From positions 124,001 through 188,000 of the forward strand of contig NZ_JABXKF010000145.1 of the NCBI RefSeq assembly GCF_017115165.1: DNA of 64,000 nucleotides, written 5' to 3'. Below the pieces are notes generated by a model that saw nothing but the letters and a program-made list of their open reading frames with translations, did not search any database and had not been told where the DNA came from. The number at the start of each line of letters is the position of its first letter. The stretch's first letter is position 1. The translations under genes and the position numbers were made by a program. The stretch is from Nostoc sp. LPT (GTDB lineage: Bacteria > Cyanobacteriota > Cyanobacteriia > Cyanobacteriales > Nostocaceae). This document shows positions 1-8,337 of this stretch, in pieces.

Positions 1-175
1 ATTTTATCGCTTGGATTAAATTTTCCATAATCAACAGTCGCAGTTTTATTCAGCACTACAACTAAAAATTATGTGTTATAAATAACAGAAAGGTTAAGGG
101 TAATATTCCTTAAACAATATTGCTTTAATTGAATATAGAGAGTCTGTATTTTTAACTAGCTTTTATCCAGAAAAA

Positions 176-556
176 CACTTAGGTAGGAGCATCACATTAG
201 ATTGCCTCCAGCTTTAATGTACTAACACGATCGCACCTTTCCTCAACCCTCCCCAGTCAATCCATTAAACGCCATATTTTCCATAAAAGTATCGCGTTTT
301 GTCTTGGGTTGTAAATCAACTTTTGAACTCGTAAACTAACTTTTGTGACTTGTAAAGCAGCTTTTGCGACTCGTAAACTAGCTTTTGCGACTCGTAAACT
401 AACTTTTGAACTCGTAAACTAACTTTTGCGACTTGTAAACTAACTTTTGAACTCGTAAACTAGCTTTTGCGACTTGTAAACTAACTTTTGAACTCGTAAA
501 CTAACTTTTGAACTCGTAAACCTGTTATTGTCAACGAATTTCAGCAAATTTATACT
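176..556. repeat. Long direct repeat D1, left copy
   Basis: This stretch and 4011-4433 share the same order of parts: CACTTAGGT, then a degenerate copy of the 3' end of the transketolase-like gene (CTTTAATGnACTAAC ... CCATTAAACGCCAT), then a 20/21-bp tandem array, then CCTGTTATTGTCAACGAA. Copies of this kind flank the accessory patch that holds the integron relic and the kinase. The sequence carries no convincing coding potential. The similarity is seen directly; descent from the 3' end of the gene at 4555-6768 is inferred. Confidence 0.75.
301..521. repeat. 20/21-bp tandem repeat array
   Basis: Around ten contiguous units built on AACTAACTTTTGAACTCGTA (20 bp) or AACTAGCTTTTGCGACTCGTA-like 21-bp variants follow one another without spacers. 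It lies inside repeat D1 and has a sister array at 4156-4404. The absence of spacers rules out CRISPR. Confidence 0.9.
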
Positions 557-561
557 AATTT

Positions 562-811
562 GAAAAAAGAATGCAACGATAGAATTTACGTCTTTGCACA
601 AGCGACCGTGATATTGACCTATTGGCAGGCGAATGCACTTGGTAATATCGCTGGAAGTCCAGTGCTTGGATGGCTTGCTACAATAGCTTCCCTGCGAACG
701 GCGCTGAGTGCGGGAACGCTGGTGTACATTACGACGATACCGATCTTACTCATCGCCCAGCGACGGTGGAAGCGCGCGCAGCAGATGCCTATGGTTACGG
801 AAGAACAGTAG
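562..811 (+). pseudogene. C-terminal fragment of an MFS-type transporter
   Basis: The reading frame encodes a hydrophobic stretch (GNIAGSPVLGWLATIAS, then TLVYITTIPILLIAQRR) ending in a basic tail. This is typical of the last two transmembrane helices of a major-facilitator transporter. The 5' part is missing: the frame runs directly out of repeat D1 near position 557, so only about 80 residues remain and no proper start or ribosome site is visible. Base composition is GC-richer than the host flanks. The fragment sits next to the attC-like site at 872-931 and is antisense to the cassette gene. It may be the remnant of a second cassette or of co-transferred DNA. The family call is by eye and moderate. 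Confidence 0.5.
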
Positions 812-871
812 CCTTTATGTAGCACAGGAGCAGACATCTGGGTTCGAGGTGAGAAGGCGCTTATTTCTGCC

Positions 872-931
872 GCCGAACGCCTGCGTCAGCCGCGCCCACT
901 GACGGACGTCGGCTGCACGCAATGGTTGGGC
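872..931 (-). mobile_element. attC-like integron recombination site
   Basis: Read on the minus strand this 60-bp imperfect palindrome starts with GCCCAAC (R'' type, consensus RYYYAAC) and ends with GTTCGGC (R' type, consensus GTTRRRY with one mismatch). Between them TGCGTGCAGCCG pairs with CGGCTGACGCA except for one unpaired G, the extrahelical base expected in attC L boxes. The central part is unpaired. It starts 4 nt after the stop of the monooxygenase gene, the normal place for attC in a gene cassette. Motifs and pairing are seen; recombination activity is inferred. Confidence 0.85.
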
Positions 932-2116
932 TATCCATCAGACTGAAAATGCCTTACCGTCAGTTTGACTTTTTGGTGTCGTCCCATGCGCGGCCCGATC
1001 GATCCGGGGCCAGACCTCGTTCGCCATCAGCTCCATAGAGCGTCGGGCGAGCGCTGGATTGGTCCAGTCGTGGCCCGTGTAGAGCAGTGTGCCGAACGCG
1101 CCGACCTCGTTGCGGAATGCAAGAATCTGATCTGCGACGCTCTGGGGGGTTCCCGCGATTACGAGACGCTCAATGCACCGCTTCGTAGAGAGCTCGGAAT
1201 CCGGCTGGTCGGGAAAGTCGCGCATGACGTCCAGCGCGCCGGCCTTCGCGAGCTTGGTCTTCATGACGTGGAAGTAGAAGTCGTGCGCGCCGTCCTCGCG
1301 ATGCACGTAGCGATGTGCCGTGGCCTCGTCATCGGCCACGAAAACGCTGCGCGCCACGCGCCACCCGGAAGCATCGGCACAGAGGCCCGCCGATCGCCGG
1401 CCTTCCAGGTAGTTCTTAATGTGGGCCCGGACGACATACGCACCCAGGTAGGTCGCCGAGATTCCGAACCAGCCGCGCGCTCCCGCGGCGTGCGGTCCCT
1501 GAGCGTCCGGTCGGATCGAGGTGATGGCGATGGGCGGATGGGGCTCTTGCAGCGGTCGGACAGCGACACCCACTCCGATGTTCCGATCAAGCGAGCGCTC
1601 GGTGGTGGTTCGGTAGAACTTGCCTTCGATCCGGTACGGCGGCTCTTCGCTCCAGATCCGGCATATATGTTCGAGCGCCTCCTGGGTCTTGCGTTTTCGG
1701 TCCGAGCCGAAATCTCCGAGGGCTTCTGCGTCGCCGGGAACGCCGGGTCCGACTCCCAGAATCAATCGACCCTGCACCAGGTGGTCCACCATCGCGACCT
1801 GCGCCGCCACCATCGCCGGGTGGTAGTTGGCGAGCGGAAGCACGCCGGTACCGAAGGTGATCGACGGGCACGCATCGGCAAGATTCGCAATGAAAGCGAG
1901 GCTCGAGGTGATCGTCTCGGCCGAGTCGACGAGATGCTCGCCGATGAAGGCCTCGCGGTAGCCGAGCCGGTCGGCGAGCACGACCGCTTCGCGATCCTCG
2001 CAAAGAACGTCCCCATAGGAACGAGACGGCGGGTGGACAGGCTGGATGAAGAATCCGAGCTTCAGGGAGTTCTGCATTGAGTCTTTATAGTCGTTCATTC
2101 GTTCCGTGCCGCCCAA
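878..2116 (-). mobile_element. Integron gene cassette carrying the LLM monooxygenase
   Basis: The cassette as it would be excised: its 5' boundary is G^TTGGGC on the minus strand (G at 2117, cassette from 2116) and its 3' boundary is the G of GTTCGGC in attC (878). Circularised, the cassette would have an R' box GTTGGGC, the exact complement of its own R'' box GCCCAAC at 925-931. This is expected only if the two ends belong to one cassette. The leader before the ATG is 18 nt and the attC follows the stop within 4 nt. The compact GC-rich unit contrasts with AT-rich DNA from 2118 on. Confidence 0.8.
938..2098 (-). CDS. Luciferase-like (LLM class) flavin-dependent monooxygenase
   Basis: The product of 386 residues fits the bacterial luciferase-like monooxygenase family, TIM-barrel enzymes that use reduced FMN and oxygen. 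Typical stretches are LKLGFFIQPVHPP near the N-terminus, EHLVDSAETI, GTGVLPLANYHPAMVAAQVA, and GRLILGVGPGVPGDAEALG in the phosphate-binding part. C-terminal GTPQSVADQILAFR matches family members that end with a substrate/flavin lid. The substrate is unknown. The gene is intact and visibly GC-rich with GC-rich third codon positions, unlike its neighbours. The start is placed at the ATG (2098) preceded by GGAAC; an in-frame TTG at 2116 coincides with the cassette boundary. It is the gene of the proposed integron cassette at 878-2116 and was most likely acquired from a GC-rich bacterium. Confidence 0.85.
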   Translation of the reverse strand: MNDYKDSMQNSLKLGFFIQPVHPPSRSYGDVLCEDREAVVLADRLGYREAFIGEHLVDSAETITSSLAFIANLADACPSITFGTGVLPLANYHPAMVAAQVAMVDHLVQGRLILGVGPGVPGDAEALGDFGSDRKRKTQEALEHICRIWSEEPPYRIEGKFYRTTTERSLDRNIGVGVAVRPLQEPHPPIAITSIRPDAQGPHAAGARGWFGISATYLGAYVVRAHIKNYLEGRRSAGLCADASGWRVARSVFVADDEATAHRYVHREDGAHDFYFHVMKTKLAKAGALDVMRDFPDQPDSELSTKRCIERLVIAGTPQSVADQILAFRNEVGAFGTLLYTGHDWTNPALARRSMELMANEVWPRIDRAAHGTTPKSQTDGKAFSV

Positions 2117-2123
2117 CTATTTA

Positions 2124-2370
2124 TTATACGGAAACTTTACGTATAATCTTTTTTTAATCCTGATATATCAGGCATTCTAAGGAAATCCTGTTTGAATATA
2201 CGGAAAACTTCTTTTTTACCCCCTTTTTTGGGTATTATACAGAATTTTTCCGTATAACCACCCTTCACAGGAGGATTATATGGAATTTTTCCTTATATCC
2301 CTTGGTGTTATCAAGAACTTTTCCGTATAACATCCTGATTTAGAGTATTAAACGGAATTTTTCTGTATAA
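2124..2370. repeat. Array of 23-bp palindromes between cassette and integrase relic (attI-position region)
   Basis: Imperfect palindromes of the form TTATACGG-AATTTTT-CCGTATAA occur at 2124-2146, 2196-2218 (right arm decayed), 2235-2257, 2276-2298, 2308-2330 and 2348-2370. The first is 7 bp from the cassette boundary and the last 5 bp before the integrase start codon. This is where an integron keeps attI, the cassette promoter and the integrase promoter. They could be integrase-binding sites, operators or an unrelated interspersed palindrome family; the sequence alone does not decide. Confidence 0.8.
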
Positions 2371-2375
2371 CACCG

Positions 2376-2691
2376 ATGGAACAACGCCCAAAGAAACTGC
2401 TTGAACAAGTACAAGATGTTATCCGGCTTAAAGACTATTCTTACCAAACAGAGAAGACTTACATTTACTAGATTCGACGCTATATCCTTTTTCATAATAA
2501 ACGCCATCCTTTCATACATGGGAAGTACCGAAATAGAAACGTTTTTAACGCATCTTGCGGTTAATGAAAATGTGGCTGCATCAACGCAAAATCAAGCACT
2601 TCATGCTGTTATTATAAGGAAACGATCGCCTTCTGATTTTAATTTAGCGATCGCATCTCAATACTGCTTAATTCTTAACCGAGAAGTATTG
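2376..2691 (+). pseudogene. Integron-type tyrosine recombinase (IntI-like), 5' relic
   Basis: From the ATG at 2376 the frame reads PKKLLEQVQDVIRLKDYSYQ then TEKTYIY followed by TAG at 2469-2471, then IRRYILFHNKRHP. After a frameshift near 2505-2517 it continues GSTEIETFLTHLAVNENVAA and STQNQALHAV. This is the N-terminal SAM-like DNA-binding domain of integron integrases (compare YSLRTEQAYVHWVR in IntI1). A HIP1-containing insertion separates ALHAVII from REVL. Similarity then stops at the D2 repeat, so the whole catalytic domain (Arg, His, Tyr residues) is gone. It is divergent from the cassette gene, as in working integrons, but cannot be active. Confidence 0.85.
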
Positions 2692-2890
2692 CTATTTATC
2701 CTGTCTGCTAAATTCTTTTAAATAAAAAAACGCAAATATACGCATTGCAACGTTATTTTCAGCGTTTGTATACGTATATTTGCGATAAAATTAAAAACAA
2801 TTCCAGCTTTAATGCACTAACGCGATCGCACGTTTCGTTAACGCTTCAGCAGTTAATCCATTAAACGCCATCAACTCTCCAGCACTGGCT
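2692..2890. repeat. Direct repeat D2, left copy (includes 3' end of transketolase-like gene)
   Basis: About 199 bp closely matching 4439-4636. The match runs from CTATTTATCCTGTCTGC through a hairpin (CGCAAATATACG at 2731-2742 pairing with CGTATATTTGCG at 2773-2784) into a copy of the last roughly 85 bases of the transketolase-like coding region, ending at CAGCACTGGCT. Unrelated sequence follows. Together the two D2 copies bracket the kinase gene. 2891-3081 shows only HIP1 sites and the terminator at 3019. Confidence 0.85.
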
Positions 2891-3018
2891 CGTACAAGTA
2901 CGTCCCATTGGTAAAAAATTGCGCGATCGCGACTGATGAATTAATGTGAACACTGCGATCGCATTTCCTCAACTTGTCTTATTTATCGCTTTATAACTGA
3001 AGTCGTGGCTATCCTAAT

Positions 3019-3040
3019 AAAACCTGCAAAGGCAGGTTTT
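3019..3040 (-). terminator. Hairpin terminator downstream of the kinase gene
   Basis: AAAACCTGC (3019-3027) pairs perfectly with GCAGGTTTT (3032-3040) around a 4-nt loop. On the minus strand the stem is followed by a T-rich run, and the kinase stop lies 40 bases upstream in that direction. Confidence 0.6.
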
Positions 3041-3081
3041 TAAAGGGAAAATATTGCTCAATTTTCCCAATTATTTATTAA

Positions 3082-3954
3082 TTACTGTTTTAATTTGCTT
3101 GCCTGTGATATTTCACGCCAAAAATCGAGGGCTGTTTGGGTTCTGTCAGCAACGTGTCTACGTAGCGCTTTTGCTATCGTGTACTTATATGGTGAAGAGA
3201 GCTTTTTTGCTAATTGGCGTGGCTTTCCTGCCAATATTTCTTCATATGTAAAAGGTGGAATATATCCAATTAATAAACTTAATAATAATAACCCTGTGTG
3301 GTATATATCTACCTGTCGTCCAATCTTTCCATATTCTTTGGGAGCAAGAAATTCCGGAGGCAGCATCCATTCTGCAAGTATAGTATTAAAAATATTAATA
3401 TCATTTTCTAATCTACTTATTCCTAAGTCTCCAATTTTGAACATAAAAACTGGCTCTTTATTTGGAATTAATCTATCGTACATCAATGAGACAAAAACAT
3501 TTCCAGGATGGATATCTTTGTGAACGTAACCAGCGCTGTGCATGAAGTGAATTCCACATAATAGGTCTCGTGCAAGGCATGGTAATAAAATCTCACCTGC
3601 TAAATCTGGTATCTCAAGCAAGTCTTTAAGTGTACAATGACAACGCTCTATAATTAGGTAAAAAGTATTACGATACTCAAAAGCATCATATATATAAGTA
3701 ATATTTGGATGCCGTAGGTGTACTAGCTTATTTAACTCTTCTGACCACTCTTGGTGAACCTGCTCATAAGTACGGTTTTGAGGCACAAGAACTTTAGCTA
3801 CTAGTTCATTTTCCCACTCATCTTGACATTCGTATACCAAGCCAAAGGAACCTTGTCCTAGACTTTCACCAATTAAGTATCTTTGATTAATAATATCTCC
3901 AGGTTGAGGAGGGCGAAACAACTTTGGTAGCTGGAATTTTTGACGATTAATCAT
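3082..3954 (-). CDS. Serine/threonine protein kinase (Hanks type)
   Basis: A compact single-domain kinase of 290 residues. Recognisable subdomains are the glycine loop GESLGQGSFGLVYE, VAKVLV with the ATP-anchoring lysine, HKDIHPGNV as the catalytic loop (HKD instead of HRD, Asp kept), and GDLGISRLE as a DFG variant (DLG). An APE-equivalent PPEF, the VDIYHTGLLLLSLL helix and a closing Arg-rich subdomain follow. There is no transmembrane segment or extra sensor domain, so it is probably cytoplasmic. ATG at 3954 is preferred because residues upstream of it (to 4005) look non-conserved. The gene stands alone between the two D2 repeats, next to the integron relic, so it may be an accessory gene. 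Its substrate is unknown. Confidence 0.85.
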   Translation of the reverse strand: MINRQKFQLPKLFRPPQPGDIINQRYLIGESLGQGSFGLVYECQDEWENELVAKVLVPQNRTYEQVHQEWSEELNKLVHLRHPNITYIYDAFEYRNTFYLIIERCHCTLKDLLEIPDLAGEILLPCLARDLLCGIHFMHSAGYVHKDIHPGNVFVSLMYDRLIPNKEPVFMFKIGDLGISRLENDINIFNTILAEWMLPPEFLAPKEYGKIGRQVDIYHTGLLLLSLLIGYIPPFTYEEILAGKPRQLAKKLSSPYKYTIAKALRRHVADRTQTALDFWREISQASKLKQ

Positions 3955-4010
3955 TGTGGCTTTAGCCTCATTATTAAAACCCCTATAATAGCAAATACTA
4001 CCCAAGAAAT

Positions 4011-4433
4011 CACTTAGGTGGGTGTATCACATCATATTATGTCTATTCAGCTTTAATGCACTAACATGATCGCACCTTTCGTCAAGCCTCCCCAGTCAAT
4101 CCATTAAACGCCATGTTTTCCATAAAAGTATCGCGCTTTGTCCTGGCTTGGAAATCAACTTTTGCGACTCGTAAACTAACTTTTGCGACTCGTAAACTAG
4201 CTTTTGCGACTCGTAAACTAGCTTTTGCGACTCGTAAACTAGCTTTTGCGACTCGTAAACTAGCTTTTGCGACTCGTAAACTAGCTTTTGCGACTCGTAA
4301 ACTAGCTTTTGCGACTCGTAAACTAACTTTTGAACTCGTAAACTAGCTTTTGCGACTCGTAAACTAACTTTTAAACTCGTAAACTAACTTTTAAACTCGT
4401 AAACCTGTTATTGTCAACGAAATTCAGCAAAAT
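4011..4433. repeat. Long direct repeat D1, right copy
   Basis: Same part order as 176-556: CACTTAGGT, degenerate transketolase-like 3' end (about 4049-4125), tandem array, CCTGTTATTGTCAACGAA. The right copy is followed at once by D2, so D1 and D2 abut here. At the left end D1 abuts the transporter fragment. Confidence 0.75.
4156..4404. repeat. 21-bp tandem repeat array
   Basis: About twelve units based on AACTAGCTTTTGCGACTCGTA, several identical in a row, with 20-bp variants at the right end. Because 21 is divisible by three the array gives an open frame of repeated KLAFATR, which is a by-product and not a gene. Confidence 0.9.
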
Positions 4434-4438
4434 TACCC

Positions 4439-4636
4439 CTATTTATCCTGTCTGCTAAATTCTTTTAAATAAAAAACGCAAATATACGCATTGAACGCAA
4501 TTTTTCAGCGTTTCTATACGTATATTTGCGATAAAACGAGAAACTATTCTAACTTTAATGCACTAACGCGATCGCACGTTTCGTCAACGCTTCAGCAGTC
4601 AATCCATTAAACGCCATCAACTCGCCAGCACTGGCT
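4439..4636. repeat. Direct repeat D2, right copy
   Basis: This is the parental-looking copy: it runs without a break into the coding region of the transketolase-like gene. It covers the hairpin behind that gene and its last roughly 80 coding bases. The left copy is at 2692-2890. Confidence 0.85.
4477..4530 (-). terminator. Hairpin terminator of the transketolase-like gene
   Basis: CGCAAATATACG (4477-4488) pairs perfectly with CGTATATTTGCG (4519-4530), with a further inner pairing of GAACGC and GCGTTT. It lies just after the stop codon of the minus-strand gene and is followed on that strand by TTTTTTATTT. A second copy sits in D2 left. Confidence 0.65.
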
Positions 4637-6768
4637 GTAGTTTCGCCACGCTTCCACGCAAAAGTGTCGCGCTTCACTGTACTCCGTAACAAAATTGGTT
4701 CGAGTACCGCCGCCGCACCACCCGTCACAGCAATTAACGCATCGCCATCAAATAATTCGGCAAATTTCGCATCATCTAAGAAACCGCCTTCGGGTTGGGA
4801 ACAGATATCCCACGCTGTATCATGGCTACGGTACAATTGCCGAGGATTGATAACAGAAACTATCTTCGCACCAATACCTTCAGTTTCCAAGAAAGCAGCA
4901 GCTTCAAATACTGGCATTAATGTCATATCACCAATTACAGCAAATACAACTTGTTTATCGCCAGCGACTTCGTGTAATAGCACTGCACCATCGCGCAACC
5001 CTTGACGAGTTTGTTCTAAAGTGGTGCGAATTTGCAACGGCGATTTACTTGCAGTAATTACAATTCCCTTATTCTTACTTTTCAATGCCCAGTCATAACA
5101 GACTTGAATACTGTTAGCATCAGGGGGAAATAATGGAAAAACATTTCCATTTCGCATCAAGGAAGCAAAGTAAGCCTCAATTTCAGGACGTTGGTGAGTC
5201 CAACCGTTGCGTCCTTGCTCTAATGCGCCAGCTGTGAATAAAGTAATAGTCGAGGGAGTTGGACGGCGCAATTCTGCCATTGCTTGAGTCACAGTTTGCC
5301 AAATTGGTACTCCGTTGATGGCAAAAGATTCGTAGGAACACCACAAAGTTCTCGCACCCATTAACGCCAAACCCGCAGCTAAACCGGCACAAGCATCTTC
5401 ACTCAATGGTTCATAAACTTGTCCGTTTGGCGCTTGATAATATAAGTCGTCGGTTGTGGGGTGGATAATCTTTAATGCTTGGTTGATGTTAGCAATTCCA
5501 GATGCTTCATTACCATCGGCGTTGGTGACAAGGAAATTCTCATCTTTATTTCCAACTATTCCTACCAATCGTCCCATCGCAGTTGTGGAAACTTTTGGTT
5601 CGCCACCGACTGCATATTCTTCTAAAGGTAATTCGCCTAATTCTGGCAATGGGAATTCAAATTCTGTCACCACAGTTTTGGCTGCTGGGCCACCACCAGC
5701 ACGTTCTGCATTTGTTCTAACCAATTGCCAAGCTTGGGCAGACAAAGCACGGGTTTGCAATGCACTAATAATATGAGGAGCATTTAGCGTATCTTTGGGA
5801 TAGAGATTGTGAGATTTTGCCCCCCGCGCGTGGACTCCTGCACCTTTGAGTTGTTTAATGATGAAGACGGTAAGTTTACCACCAAGGGCCGATCGCGCTG
5901 CTTTATCTACGCCGGAAAGTACTGCTTGAGTAAATTCTAGCCGCTTCTCAAAGGAAAAGGCGGTACTATCAACGTAATCCCCTGGTTGGTCTTGATCGTC
6001 GAAATCTTTGGCATCAACTAATACAACTTCATCAAAACCGTTACCTTGCCAATATGCTTGCATCTCTGGGTTGGTTTTTAGGGAAACCATGCTGTGATGT
6101 TCTTGGCTGTAACCGTTCCACACCAACACCGGTAAAAAGTTGGTGACATCAGGATAAGCAGTATGAAAGTGAGCGATCGCACTGACAATATAAGGCTCAC
6201 CCAATCCCCCATCCCCAACTGTAAAGGGGAATAATTTATCTTTGTGCAATAGTGCAGCCGCCATTGCAAAGTGTTGCCCTTGTCCCAAAGGCCCAGCAGG
6301 TGCGAGAATACCGGGAATGAAACCAGAAAGATGTCCTAATAATCCGTGCTTTTCTCGGAAGCGATCGCGCAATTGTTGGACTGTAAAAATTCCCATGTCC
6401 TCTAGGGAACGATCCAAGAACATAGCACAATAAAATCCAGGGGCGTGGTGTCCCACTTCGGTAATAATGTTCTTGTATCCCAGCATGACAAGAGATGCGT
6501 AAGCTTCTGCTTGGCTGGCGAATCCGCCGGGATGCCCAGAAGCTTTACTAGCTGTAACTTGCAAAATCAGGTAGCGTAAGGCATCGGCAGCCAGTAAAGT
6601 TTGATATACAGCTGCTTTGTCTGTGGGATCTGCGATCGCTATTTTGCCCGACTCAATAGCAGGAGTTGCACCATAAGTTTCAAAATCTGGTAAGGCTTCA
6701 CCAAAATATTGAATCCCTTCAGAAAAACCGGGAAGCGCTGAAGATGCCTTTGGGGAGATTGCAGTCAT
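4555..6768 (-). CDS. Transketolase/phosphoketolase-superfamily TPP-dependent enzyme
   Basis: A 737-residue thiamine-diphosphate enzyme. SGHPGG (about residue 78), GPLGQGQ (about 158) and VGDGGLGEP (about 183, the Mg/TPP-binding GDG) place it in the transketolase superfamily. A pyrimidine-binding region (EDACAGLAAGLALMGARTLW) and a transketolase-C-like end follow. It is longer than usual transketolases (about 670) and shorter than phosphoketolases (about 790). I do not see the phosphoketolase signature GDGEAETG, so sugar-phosphate metabolism is likely but the exact reaction is open. It is divergent from the P450 at 6955 across a 186-bp promoter region. The 3' end has been copied three times in the first 4.2 kb (near 211, 2804 and 4049). 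Confidence 0.7.
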   Translation of the reverse strand: MTAISPKASSALPGFSEGIQYFGEALPDFETYGATPAIESGKIAIADPTDKAAVYQTLLAADALRYLILQVTASKASGHPGGFASQAEAYASLVMLGYKNIITEVGHHAPGFYCAMFLDRSLEDMGIFTVQQLRDRFREKHGLLGHLSGFIPGILAPAGPLGQGQHFAMAAALLHKDKLFPFTVGDGGLGEPYIVSAIAHFHTAYPDVTNFLPVLVWNGYSQEHHSMVSLKTNPEMQAYWQGNGFDEVVLVDAKDFDDQDQPGDYVDSTAFSFEKRLEFTQAVLSGVDKAARSALGGKLTVFIIKQLKGAGVHARGAKSHNLYPKDTLNAPHIISALQTRALSAQAWQLVRTNAERAGGGPAAKTVVTEFEFPLPELGELPLEEYAVGGEPKVSTTAMGRLVGIVGNKDENFLVTNADGNEASGIANINQALKIIHPTTDDLYYQAPNGQVYEPLSEDACAGLAAGLALMGARTLWCSYESFAINGVPIWQTVTQAMAELRRPTPSTITLFTAGALEQGRNGWTHQRPEIEAYFASLMRNGNVFPLFPPDANSIQVCYDWALKSKNKGIVITASKSPLQIRTTLEQTRQGLRDGAVLLHEVAGDKQVVFAVIGDMTLMPVFEAAAFLETEGIGAKIVSVINPRQLYRSHDTAWDICSQPEGGFLDDAKFAELFDGDALIAVTGGAAAVLEPILLRSTVKRDTFAWKRGETTASAGELMAFNGLTAEALTKRAIALVH

Positions 6769-6954
6769 GCTGAGTACCTTTTGACGATGAGGTGAAACTG
6801 TAGATGCTTGTTGAATTTAACAAAAATTTTACATCTTCGAGGTTGTAACAGTTTATTGCTTTTTTGCAACGTTAGAATAAGTACTTTAAATGGTTACGCA
6901 ACCAAAATTTCAGTTAGTTGAAGTAGCAAAAAAATATTAAGCAGCAAAAAATTT

Positions 6955-8337
6955 ATGAAATTCCCAAATGGGCCGCAAACTCCAGCAGTTTCACAGATGC
7001 TACGCTGGATTGCTAATCCGATGTCATTTATGGAGGCTTGTGCCAAAACCTATGGCGAGATTTTTACTCTCAGATTAGACAAAAATCTGCCTCCTATGGT
7101 AGTTGTCAGCAACCCCCAAGCGCAACAGCAAATTTTGACAACTGATACCAAGGAATTGGAAGCGCCTGGCGATGTGAATCAGCTGTTTGAACCTTTACTG
7201 GGTAAGCATTCTGTGATTACGATCAGCGGCGCAGAACACCAGCGTCAGCGCCAGTTATTAATGCCTCCCTTTCACGGCGAAAGAATGCGGAATTATAGTC
7301 AGGTGATTACCGATGTCACCAAGCAAGTCATTAGCCAATACCAGATAGGCAAACCCTTCAATATTCGGTCTGCTACTCAAGCTATTACCTTGCGGGTGAT
7401 TATGCAAGCTGTATTTGGGCTATATGAAGGGCCTCGCGCCGAAAAACTACAGAATTTTTTGAGCGAACTTTTAGAAAAAGCCAGTTCTCGGTTAAATGTG
7501 GCTTTGCTTTATTTTCCAGCTTTGCAAAGAGATTTTGGCCCGATTAACTTCTGGGGAAAACAGATGCGCCTCCAGCAAGAAGCTGACGAACTTATCTACG
7601 AGGAAATTCGGGAACGTCGAGAACAACCAGATTCATCACGCACGGATATTCTTAGTTTACTCATGGCTGCTAGAGATGAAGCCGGTCAACCGATGACTGA
7701 TGAAGAGTTGCGCGATGAATTGATGACTCTGTTAGTCGCTGGTCACGAAACCACAGCAACAGCCTTAGCATGGGCATTATACTGGATTCACAAAATACCA
7801 TCAGTGCGCCAAAAGCTACTACAAGAATTAGATAGCTTGGGCGATAACCCAGACCCCAGCACTGTTTTCAAATTACCTTATCTCAACGCTGTTTGTTCCG
7901 AGACATTGCGGATTTATCCAGTAGCGATACTAACTTTTCCCAGGGTAGTAAGAACATCGATATCGCTAGGCGGTTACGAACTAGAACCCGGTACAGTCCT
8001 ACTTGGTTCTATTTATCTGACCCATCAACGGGAAGATATTTATCCAGAACCTAAGCAGTTTAAGCCAGAACGCTTTTTAGAACGGCAATTTTCTGCCTAT
8101 GAATTTTTGCCCTTTGGGGGTGGTGTTAGGCGCTGTATTGGGCTAGCGTTTGCCCAGTTGGAAATGAAGCTAGCACTTGCTCAAATTCTTTCTAGTAAGG
8201 CATTAGAACTAGTTAATAAAGGTGAAGTGCGACCTAAGCGCCGTGGTTTGGTGACAGGCCTAGATCGTCCGATTGAGATGGTTGTCACGAGTCAACGTCA
8301 CATGAAGTCTCCCATTCTACAAACAACCACTGTTTGA
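6955..8337 (+). CDS. Cytochrome P450 (CYP110-like), first copy
   Basis: A soluble class-I type P450 of 460 residues. The I-helix oxygen-activation motif AGHETT is near residue 263, ETLRIYP gives the K-helix ExxR, and FLPFGGGVRRCIGLAFAQLE holds the heme-thiolate cysteine. Sequence style and a start lacking a membrane anchor fit the cyanobacterial CYP110 family, whose known members oxidise fatty acids or terpenoids; the substrate here is unknown. It is divergent from the transketolase-like gene and followed by a strong hairpin, so it is probably transcribed alone. A close paralogue lies 560 bp downstream. Confidence 0.9.
   Translation: MKFPNGPQTPAVSQMLRWIANPMSFMEACAKTYGEIFTLRLDKNLPPMVVVSNPQAQQQILTTDTKELEAPGDVNQLFEPLLGKHSVITISGAEHQRQRQLLMPPFHGERMRNYSQVITDVTKQVISQYQIGKPFNIRSATQAITLRVIMQAVFGLYEGPRAEKLQNFLSELLEKASSRLNVALLYFPALQRDFGPINFWGKQMRLQQEADELIYEEIRERREQPDSSRTDILSLLMAARDEAGQPMTDEELRDELMTLLVAGHETTATALAWALYWIHKIPSVRQKLLQELDSLGDNPDPSTVFKLPYLNAVCSETLRIYPVAILTFPRVVRTSISLGGYELEPGTVLLGSIYLTHQREDIYPEPKQFKPERFLERQFSAYEFLPFGGGVRRCIGLAFAQLEMKLALAQILSSKALELVNKGEVRPKRRGLVTGLDRPIEMVVTSQRHMKSPILQTTTV

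Follow-up and report, generated by a model that had tools for sequence, protein, structure and literature searches.

The analysed DNA very probably carries a decayed chromosomal integron of a Nostocales family, with one intact cassette for a luciferase-like (LLM) monooxygenase and a broken integrase. The window is the whole 64-kb stretch that was analysed; it lies on contig C142 of an 8.6 Mb draft genome of 190 contigs (G000 below), with a listed contamination of 0.18. An attC site, a minus-strand cassette gene, a cassette boundary and a divergent integrase had been proposed here, in this order, by a sequence-only reading. The arrangement held, as supported by a covariance model of attC, by the complementarity between the cassette start and the R'' box, and by the match to four platforms with an open integrase. 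That reading did not mention the attI core and the palindromes beside it (2115–2371), the remnant of an MFS transporter cassette, or a truncation predating this genome. At the level of sequence, the attI and attC sites, the cassette boundaries, the breakage of the integrase and the selection on the gene can be regarded as established. The features are collected in Table 1.

Table 1. Positions of the integron features within the 64-kb window.
Feature	Position	Strand	Details
Cassette 2 remnant, C-terminal piece of MFS transporter	560..877	+	antisense to array
Approximate insert	562..2691		relative to paralogous flank copy 3999–4636, without integron
attC of cassette 1, 60 nt	872..931	-	R'' GCCCAAC 931–925; R' GTTCGGC 878–872; covariance model R1 and own scan
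Gene cassette 1, 1239 bp	878..2116	-	G↓TT cores at 2117/2116 and 878/877
Intact ORF, 386 aa, LLM monooxygenase family	938..2098	-	PF00296 E 2.6e-40
attI core	2111..2154	-	cassette-side bases 2111–2114, AAC core 2115–2117, adjacent palindrome
Array between attI and intI of five degenerate palindromes, TTATACGGAA-TTTTTCCGTATAA type	2115..2371		family D5, 67–100% to reference copy
intI relic, N-terminal ~79 of 320 residues, one stop and frameshift	2376..2613	+	TIGR02249 E 1.8e-9
Non-intI tail at shared truncation point	2614..2651		ends at GCGATCGC site

Ends and gene content of the intact cassette

Covariance model R1 was built from 20 aligned attC sites of other arrays (72–99 nt), including two from other contigs of this genome and none from an LLM cassette. 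Scoring 872–931 with a covariance model had been proposed as a check, and the result favored the site, which gave the only match with an E of 10 or less in the 64 kb (minus strand, 38 bits, E 2.3e-7). A scan for the R''/L''/L'/R' structure returned the same interval as the sole match in 1–6000 on both strands and, with other filters, across the whole window. Order-1 Markov re-draws of 861–2116 gave an equally good structure in three of 2000 cases, none of which had the R'' heptamer GCCCAAC. The R' box is one base off the consensus. Rfam yielded no attC and no other relevant family on 1–8000.

The heptamer at the cassette start, GTTGGGC (2117–2111), is the exact complement of the cassette's own R'' box, which fits a cassette that has passed through a circular form. 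On the minus strand, the junction reads AATAAATA followed by GTTGGGC, with the start between G2117 and T2116; the other end falls between G878 and T877. Copies of the cassette having attI at the start and the window-type attC at the end were found in G011, G025, G156 and Nostoc sp. 106C. The exact complementarity, together with the occurrence of the same cassette elsewhere, sets the cassette bounds.

The cassette ORF had been described as open over its full length and GC-rich, and both properties were confirmed. The stop lies at 938 and the best start is the ATG at 2098. The TTG start listed at 2116 falls on the recombination core. The GC content is 0.636 in 878–2114, against 0.426 for the window, and the third-position GC is 0.756 in the LLM gene versus 0.364 in the neighboring ORF 4555–6768 (transketolase-like by eye). 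The solved relative nearest by sequence is 3,6-diketocamphane 1,6-monooxygenase (4uwm, E 3.9e-21), from which FMNH2-dependent oxygenation would be our guess; we infer the substrate and cofactor of the enzyme and its expression. The protein was over the cut-off of no NCBIfam family among the 25 of 31 families listed. The search for a cassette promoter Pc gave one promoter-like site, compared with a mean of 1.1 in shuffles.

Comparison of the window copy with eight homologues gave dN/dS values of 0.15–0.34 (Nei–Gojobori). By this measure, purifying selection acts on the monooxygenase gene, which presumably still works. Among 36 gene pairs, the outlier was G011–G025 (dN/dS 0.91, from few changes: 7 synonymous and 19 non-synonymous); the C-terminus of the G025 gene is altered. 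Close relatives of the gene occur in four of the 98 other genomes searched (85–96%), three of them in the window's genus, and the G004 copy (85%) has an internal stop. A scan of genome contigs added copies in Nostoc sp. 106C, Phormidium tenue and a Planctomycetota MAG (82% nucleotide identity), and a further one is present in G156. No plasmid donor of the LLM protein at 60% identity or more was found among the best 10 of 468 matching records.

Presence or absence in related genomes had also been proposed as a check; a close copy is absent from 49 of the 52 other genomes searched in the genus. For an orthologous empty site, the short flanks taken around the relatives' kinase gene gave no match within 562–2691; the kinase gene itself was matched in four other genomes out of 53 (own included), three of them well (76%). 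The competing possibility that the monooxygenase gene is native, without these boundaries, is at odds with the copies bounded by attI and attC in G011, G025, G156 and 106C, although the picture is mixed, as the copies of G058, G004 and the MAG gave no attC match in the stretch searched. The homology of the G058 copy continues into the attI side. In Phormidium tenue, a partial attC match precedes the gene (30.3 bits), while its own attC is a different one (56.1 bits). At 7162–7250 of this locus (L185), the LLM gene is accompanied by a longer, different attC, the switch being located at the R'' box, as if the attC had been swapped.

The claim that there is one cassette stood for the intact one, but a second, degraded cassette with the MFS transporter piece is also present. 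The MFS cassette is longer in G025, where PF07690 is matched with E 4.7e-17, and in G028. G033 has lost part of the MFS gene and differs from G025 beyond the first 375 bp of the cassette.

The truncated integrase and its platform

The integrase had been called dead, and this was borne out. Residues 1–45 and 48–79 remain (tblastn identity to the intact integrase of G150, 91%), covering positions 36–72 of TIGR02249; beyond residue ~79 of 320 the gene is cut, and the remainder contains a stop and a frameshift. With these three lesions, the platform cannot move cassettes unaided, and no complete, functional integrase is found at the window locus. The homology to intI stops at the same point in six genomes (G000, G011, G025, G033, G024 and G028) and gives way to a shared non-intI tail of ~38 bp, near the end of which G024 and G028 deviate. 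Among these six, the stop is confined to the window copy, and the frameshift is common to the window and G025. Judged from the shared end point, the truncation is older than this genome.

The TIGR02249 search covered 198 genomes (own included), with at most the ten best candidates of each. Eleven genomes were over the family cut-off and in eight the integrase was uninterrupted; in the window's genus only G049, which has a stop, was over it. In this genome and the other genomes of the truncated lineage, nothing was over the cut-off among at most the ten best candidates, so that no helper in trans came to light there. Matches below the cut-off are unspecific, as they were obtained at E 0.001 in 179 of the 198 genomes and in all 14 controls. 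Integrons, which had been described as rare in filamentous cyanobacteria, are not new to cyanobacteria: they are reported in the literature (PMC8352920, PMC9668308, PMC2426708, PMC8618304), and eight of the 198 genomes have an uninterrupted integrase. Among the best 10 of 494 phage records matching the intact integrase, the highest identity was 53% (class 1 type), and no cyanobacterial record appeared among the matches listed; one record in the 60–80% band lies outside these.

From 2115 rightwards, ~500 bp are shared with platforms that have an open integrase (G150 89%, G054 87%, G106 86%, G111 82%). The four matches end at or within a few bases of the AAC at 2115–2117, and other cassette DNA follows beyond (by eye). 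Homology ending at the AAC core, with differing DNA beyond it, marks the attI site, which is conserved in relatives, where the cassette side differs. A 39-nt attI pattern (up to three mismatches) matched no fewer than 45 places, distributed over 32 of the 99 genomes examined (own included), and the reversed control pattern gave 0; the count is a lower bound, since the G011:C26 and G025:C8 sites were missed owing to a small length change. Platform DNA was matched in 112 of 198 genomes, a figure that gives no copy numbers, as at most three candidates were scored per genome. Beside attI, 25 of 66 starts fit RYYY at all four positions and 31 at three, in a regex tally that includes false starts.

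The palindrome region is kept in other platforms, including the intact ones. An RNA-type covarying structure was considered for the array and found unsupported, with two-sided changes at three of 73 predicted pairs and a covariation term of 0.18. The array is conserved as sequence, and the palindromes may be binding sites for a regulator or the integrase. The exact palindrome pattern had no match in the genome.

The flanks 164–561 and 2692–2890 directly adjoin each other in a second copy at 3999–4636, which lacks the integron. Aligned with this copy, they represent a duplicated intergenic array of ~21-bp repeats and the end of a transketolase-like gene (named by eye). Host repeats were found on both sides of the integron. 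Repeats aside, the surroundings of the truncated unit differ in G000, G011, G025/G033, G024 and G028. In G025, a 93-bp direct repeat (98.9%; L017, 8816–8908 and 12063–12155) brackets the truncated unit, and G011 has a ~30-bp repeat (by eye) at the equivalent positions.

Cassette content beside one truncated integrase

In a tree of 16 platforms, those of the truncated lineage grouped together with an ultrafast bootstrap of 100. The signature of this lineage marks eight platform sites from seven genomes; the first cassettes there are of six kinds, unrelated over their first 400 bp, and the LLM cassette takes this place in three. The integrase stub is physically present at five of the eight sites (G000, G011, G025, G033 and G024), and these have three different first cassettes. 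In G028, the array contigs C323 and C962 end inside the palindrome array, unjoined to the stub on C692, and in G008 the stub was lost through an internal deletion. Beside the attI of C323 (L088), which has the truncated signature, we noted GNAT-, alpha/beta-hydrolase- and glyoxalase-like ORFs (by eye) with four attC. A search for the attC of the first cassette gave a candidate with a matching R'' at 26 of 58 loci, at least three of which (G033, G113, G008) look spurious by eye, and none at 32 (limit 5 kb, many stretches being shorter).

The same LLM cassette is followed by different DNA in different genomes. In G011 and G025, it stands at attI and the MFS cassette comes next; in G156 and Nostoc sp. 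106C, it also stands at attI and other DNA comes next. The cassette had been described as stranded and fixed: the gene is indeed conserved, but its varying neighbors speak against the remainder of the claim. G025 and G033, which share the truncated integrase, can be compared at an orthologous locus; one flank extends over 9.5 kb (98.3%) and the other over 5.2 kb (98.1%). The DNA next to attI is the LLM cassette in G025 and another sequence in G033; the latter terminates in a different attC (69.7 bits) and meets the MFS cassette at G↓TTCGGC, just as the LLM cassette of G025 does. Cassette exchange at attI is supported in this lineage by comparative evidence. In some relatives, the same broken device lies next to other captured genes, so that gene movement seems to have continued after the death of the enzyme.

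In the mechanism that we propose, the integrase would once have recombined circular cassettes between a folded attC and attI at 2117. The position-1 cassette is now the GC-rich one with the LLM monooxygenase gene, with the MFS-transporter cassette behind it. The cut after residue ~79 would have occurred in an ancestor of this platform lineage; the window copy also has its own stop and the frameshift shared with G025. The swapping of cassettes in the truncated lineage would be due to an integrase acting in trans.

The 39-nt pattern locates five attI sites in this genome, four of them outside the window. The site on C6 (L081) is accompanied by a C-terminal integrase piece (residues 263–320), and its first gene encodes an AIPR/AbiU-like protein. 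The first genes at the other three encode a GNAT acetyltransferase (C17, L168), a protein without a family match (C60, L166) and a TIR-domain protein (C112, L167); no integrase was found at these three in the 12–13 kb taken. The gene contents suggest that some of the cargo is defence-like. Sequence resembling attI is also present on Nostoc plasmids, one example being a plasmid typed as conjugative, where it adjoins a DUF4365 gene, and an integron integrase was found on a Kovacikia plasmid. It is possible, although we lean slightly against it, that the integron of Nostoc has fragmented into numerous attI landing sites that lack a working integrase. These would still trade cassettes, some of them defence-like, by means of an integrase that plasmids or other strains supply in trans. 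This would amount to a gene-capture network without a resident enzyme.

Alternative explanations and known integrons

The attC-like hairpin and the boundary could be chance features of a GC-rich foreign gene that was acquired by another route. GC-rich DNA forms hairpins readily, and there are LLM homologues without an attC match, as in the MAG, G004 and G058. Against this stand the sole match in 64 kb to a model trained on other sites, the 2000 re-draws without a single match having the right R'', and the same cassette ending at the same bases where the neighbors differ, which make a chance origin most improbable. An assembly chimera or contamination, to which the GC step and the 190 contigs of the draft might point, is more improbable still, as G011 and G025 have the same cassette together with the platform, repeats of the host are found to either side and the listed contamination is 0.18. 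We also weighed whether the whole truncated unit (array, attI and stub) is a mobile element hopping between sites. The same two ends appear in different surroundings in G000, G011 and G025, and similarly in G028; the direct repeat brackets the G025 unit; and ~1.5 kb taken to the left of the G011 kinase gene had no match to the window integron. However, neither terminal inverted repeats nor a transposase turned up in the stretches read, the ends vary slightly between genomes, and the dispersed repeats at the ends would permit rearrangement through recombination. On balance, a mobile unit is rather unlikely.

Ordinary homologous recombination between the platforms of different strains, with no integrase in trans, could also account for one dead integrase being found next to different cassettes. 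Several similar attI platforms per genome, five here, would provide substrates. The integrase alleles are uncoupled from the cassette content in the truncated lineage, with G011 (LLM) grouping with G033 and G024 (not LLM). Because the alleles do not track the cassettes, recombination between two truncated platforms probably also occurred. As the entire explanation, it is less convincing. Four aligned truncated platforms have nine fixed differences from nine others, the nearest to attI being column 42, so that an array brought in from another platform type would require a crossover within the first ~40 bp, a demand that is smaller between two truncated platforms. Moreover, the new DNA in the G025/G033 pair meets the MFS cassette exactly at the G↓TT start. 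We therefore consider homologous recombination on its own unlikely, and we favor, with reasonable but not high confidence, an integrase acting in trans that would have made new attI–cassette junctions, which homologous recombination would then have spread.

Trans mobilization of arrays without an integrase has been described (PMC12444791), and intI pseudogenes are common, at about one third, with Cyanobacteria among the hosts and more than one integrase gene in one fifth of the hosts (PMC2426708). The Xanthomonas chromosomal integrons with inactivated intI (PMC12444791) resemble our case, having an ancestral platform, an integrase broken by deletions or stops and retained cassettes, with one truncated copy at another site. 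According to an earlier study cited there, the same intI lesion usually goes with identical arrays, whereas a single lesion lineage has six first cassettes here. In the text available of the 2008 survey of pseudo-integrons (PMC2426708), dispersed integrase-less attI copies within one genus are not described. Among the open-licence literature searched, no title concerned Nostoc integrons or dispersed integrase-less attI sites, which is no proof of absence.

A covariance model for cyanobacterial attC has already been published (PMC8352920). The 20 sites that we aligned may belong to this class. By comparison with the class, the window attC is short and GC-rich, which suggests a foreign origin of the cassette. 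CALIN elements (PMC9024848) likewise have attC without a working integrase, but attI and an integrase stub remain here, and the window has one attC, while the IntegronFinder 2 default for CALIN is at least two attC with the integrase absent. It also differs from In0, an integrase without attC, as the attC is present.

A foreign-looking enzyme gene of a cyanobacterium can here be traced to a precise capture event. The G025/G033 pair is a natural comparison for the question of whether an integron with a dead integrase can still change its cargo. If it can, the decay of the integrase need not end the evolution of an integron.
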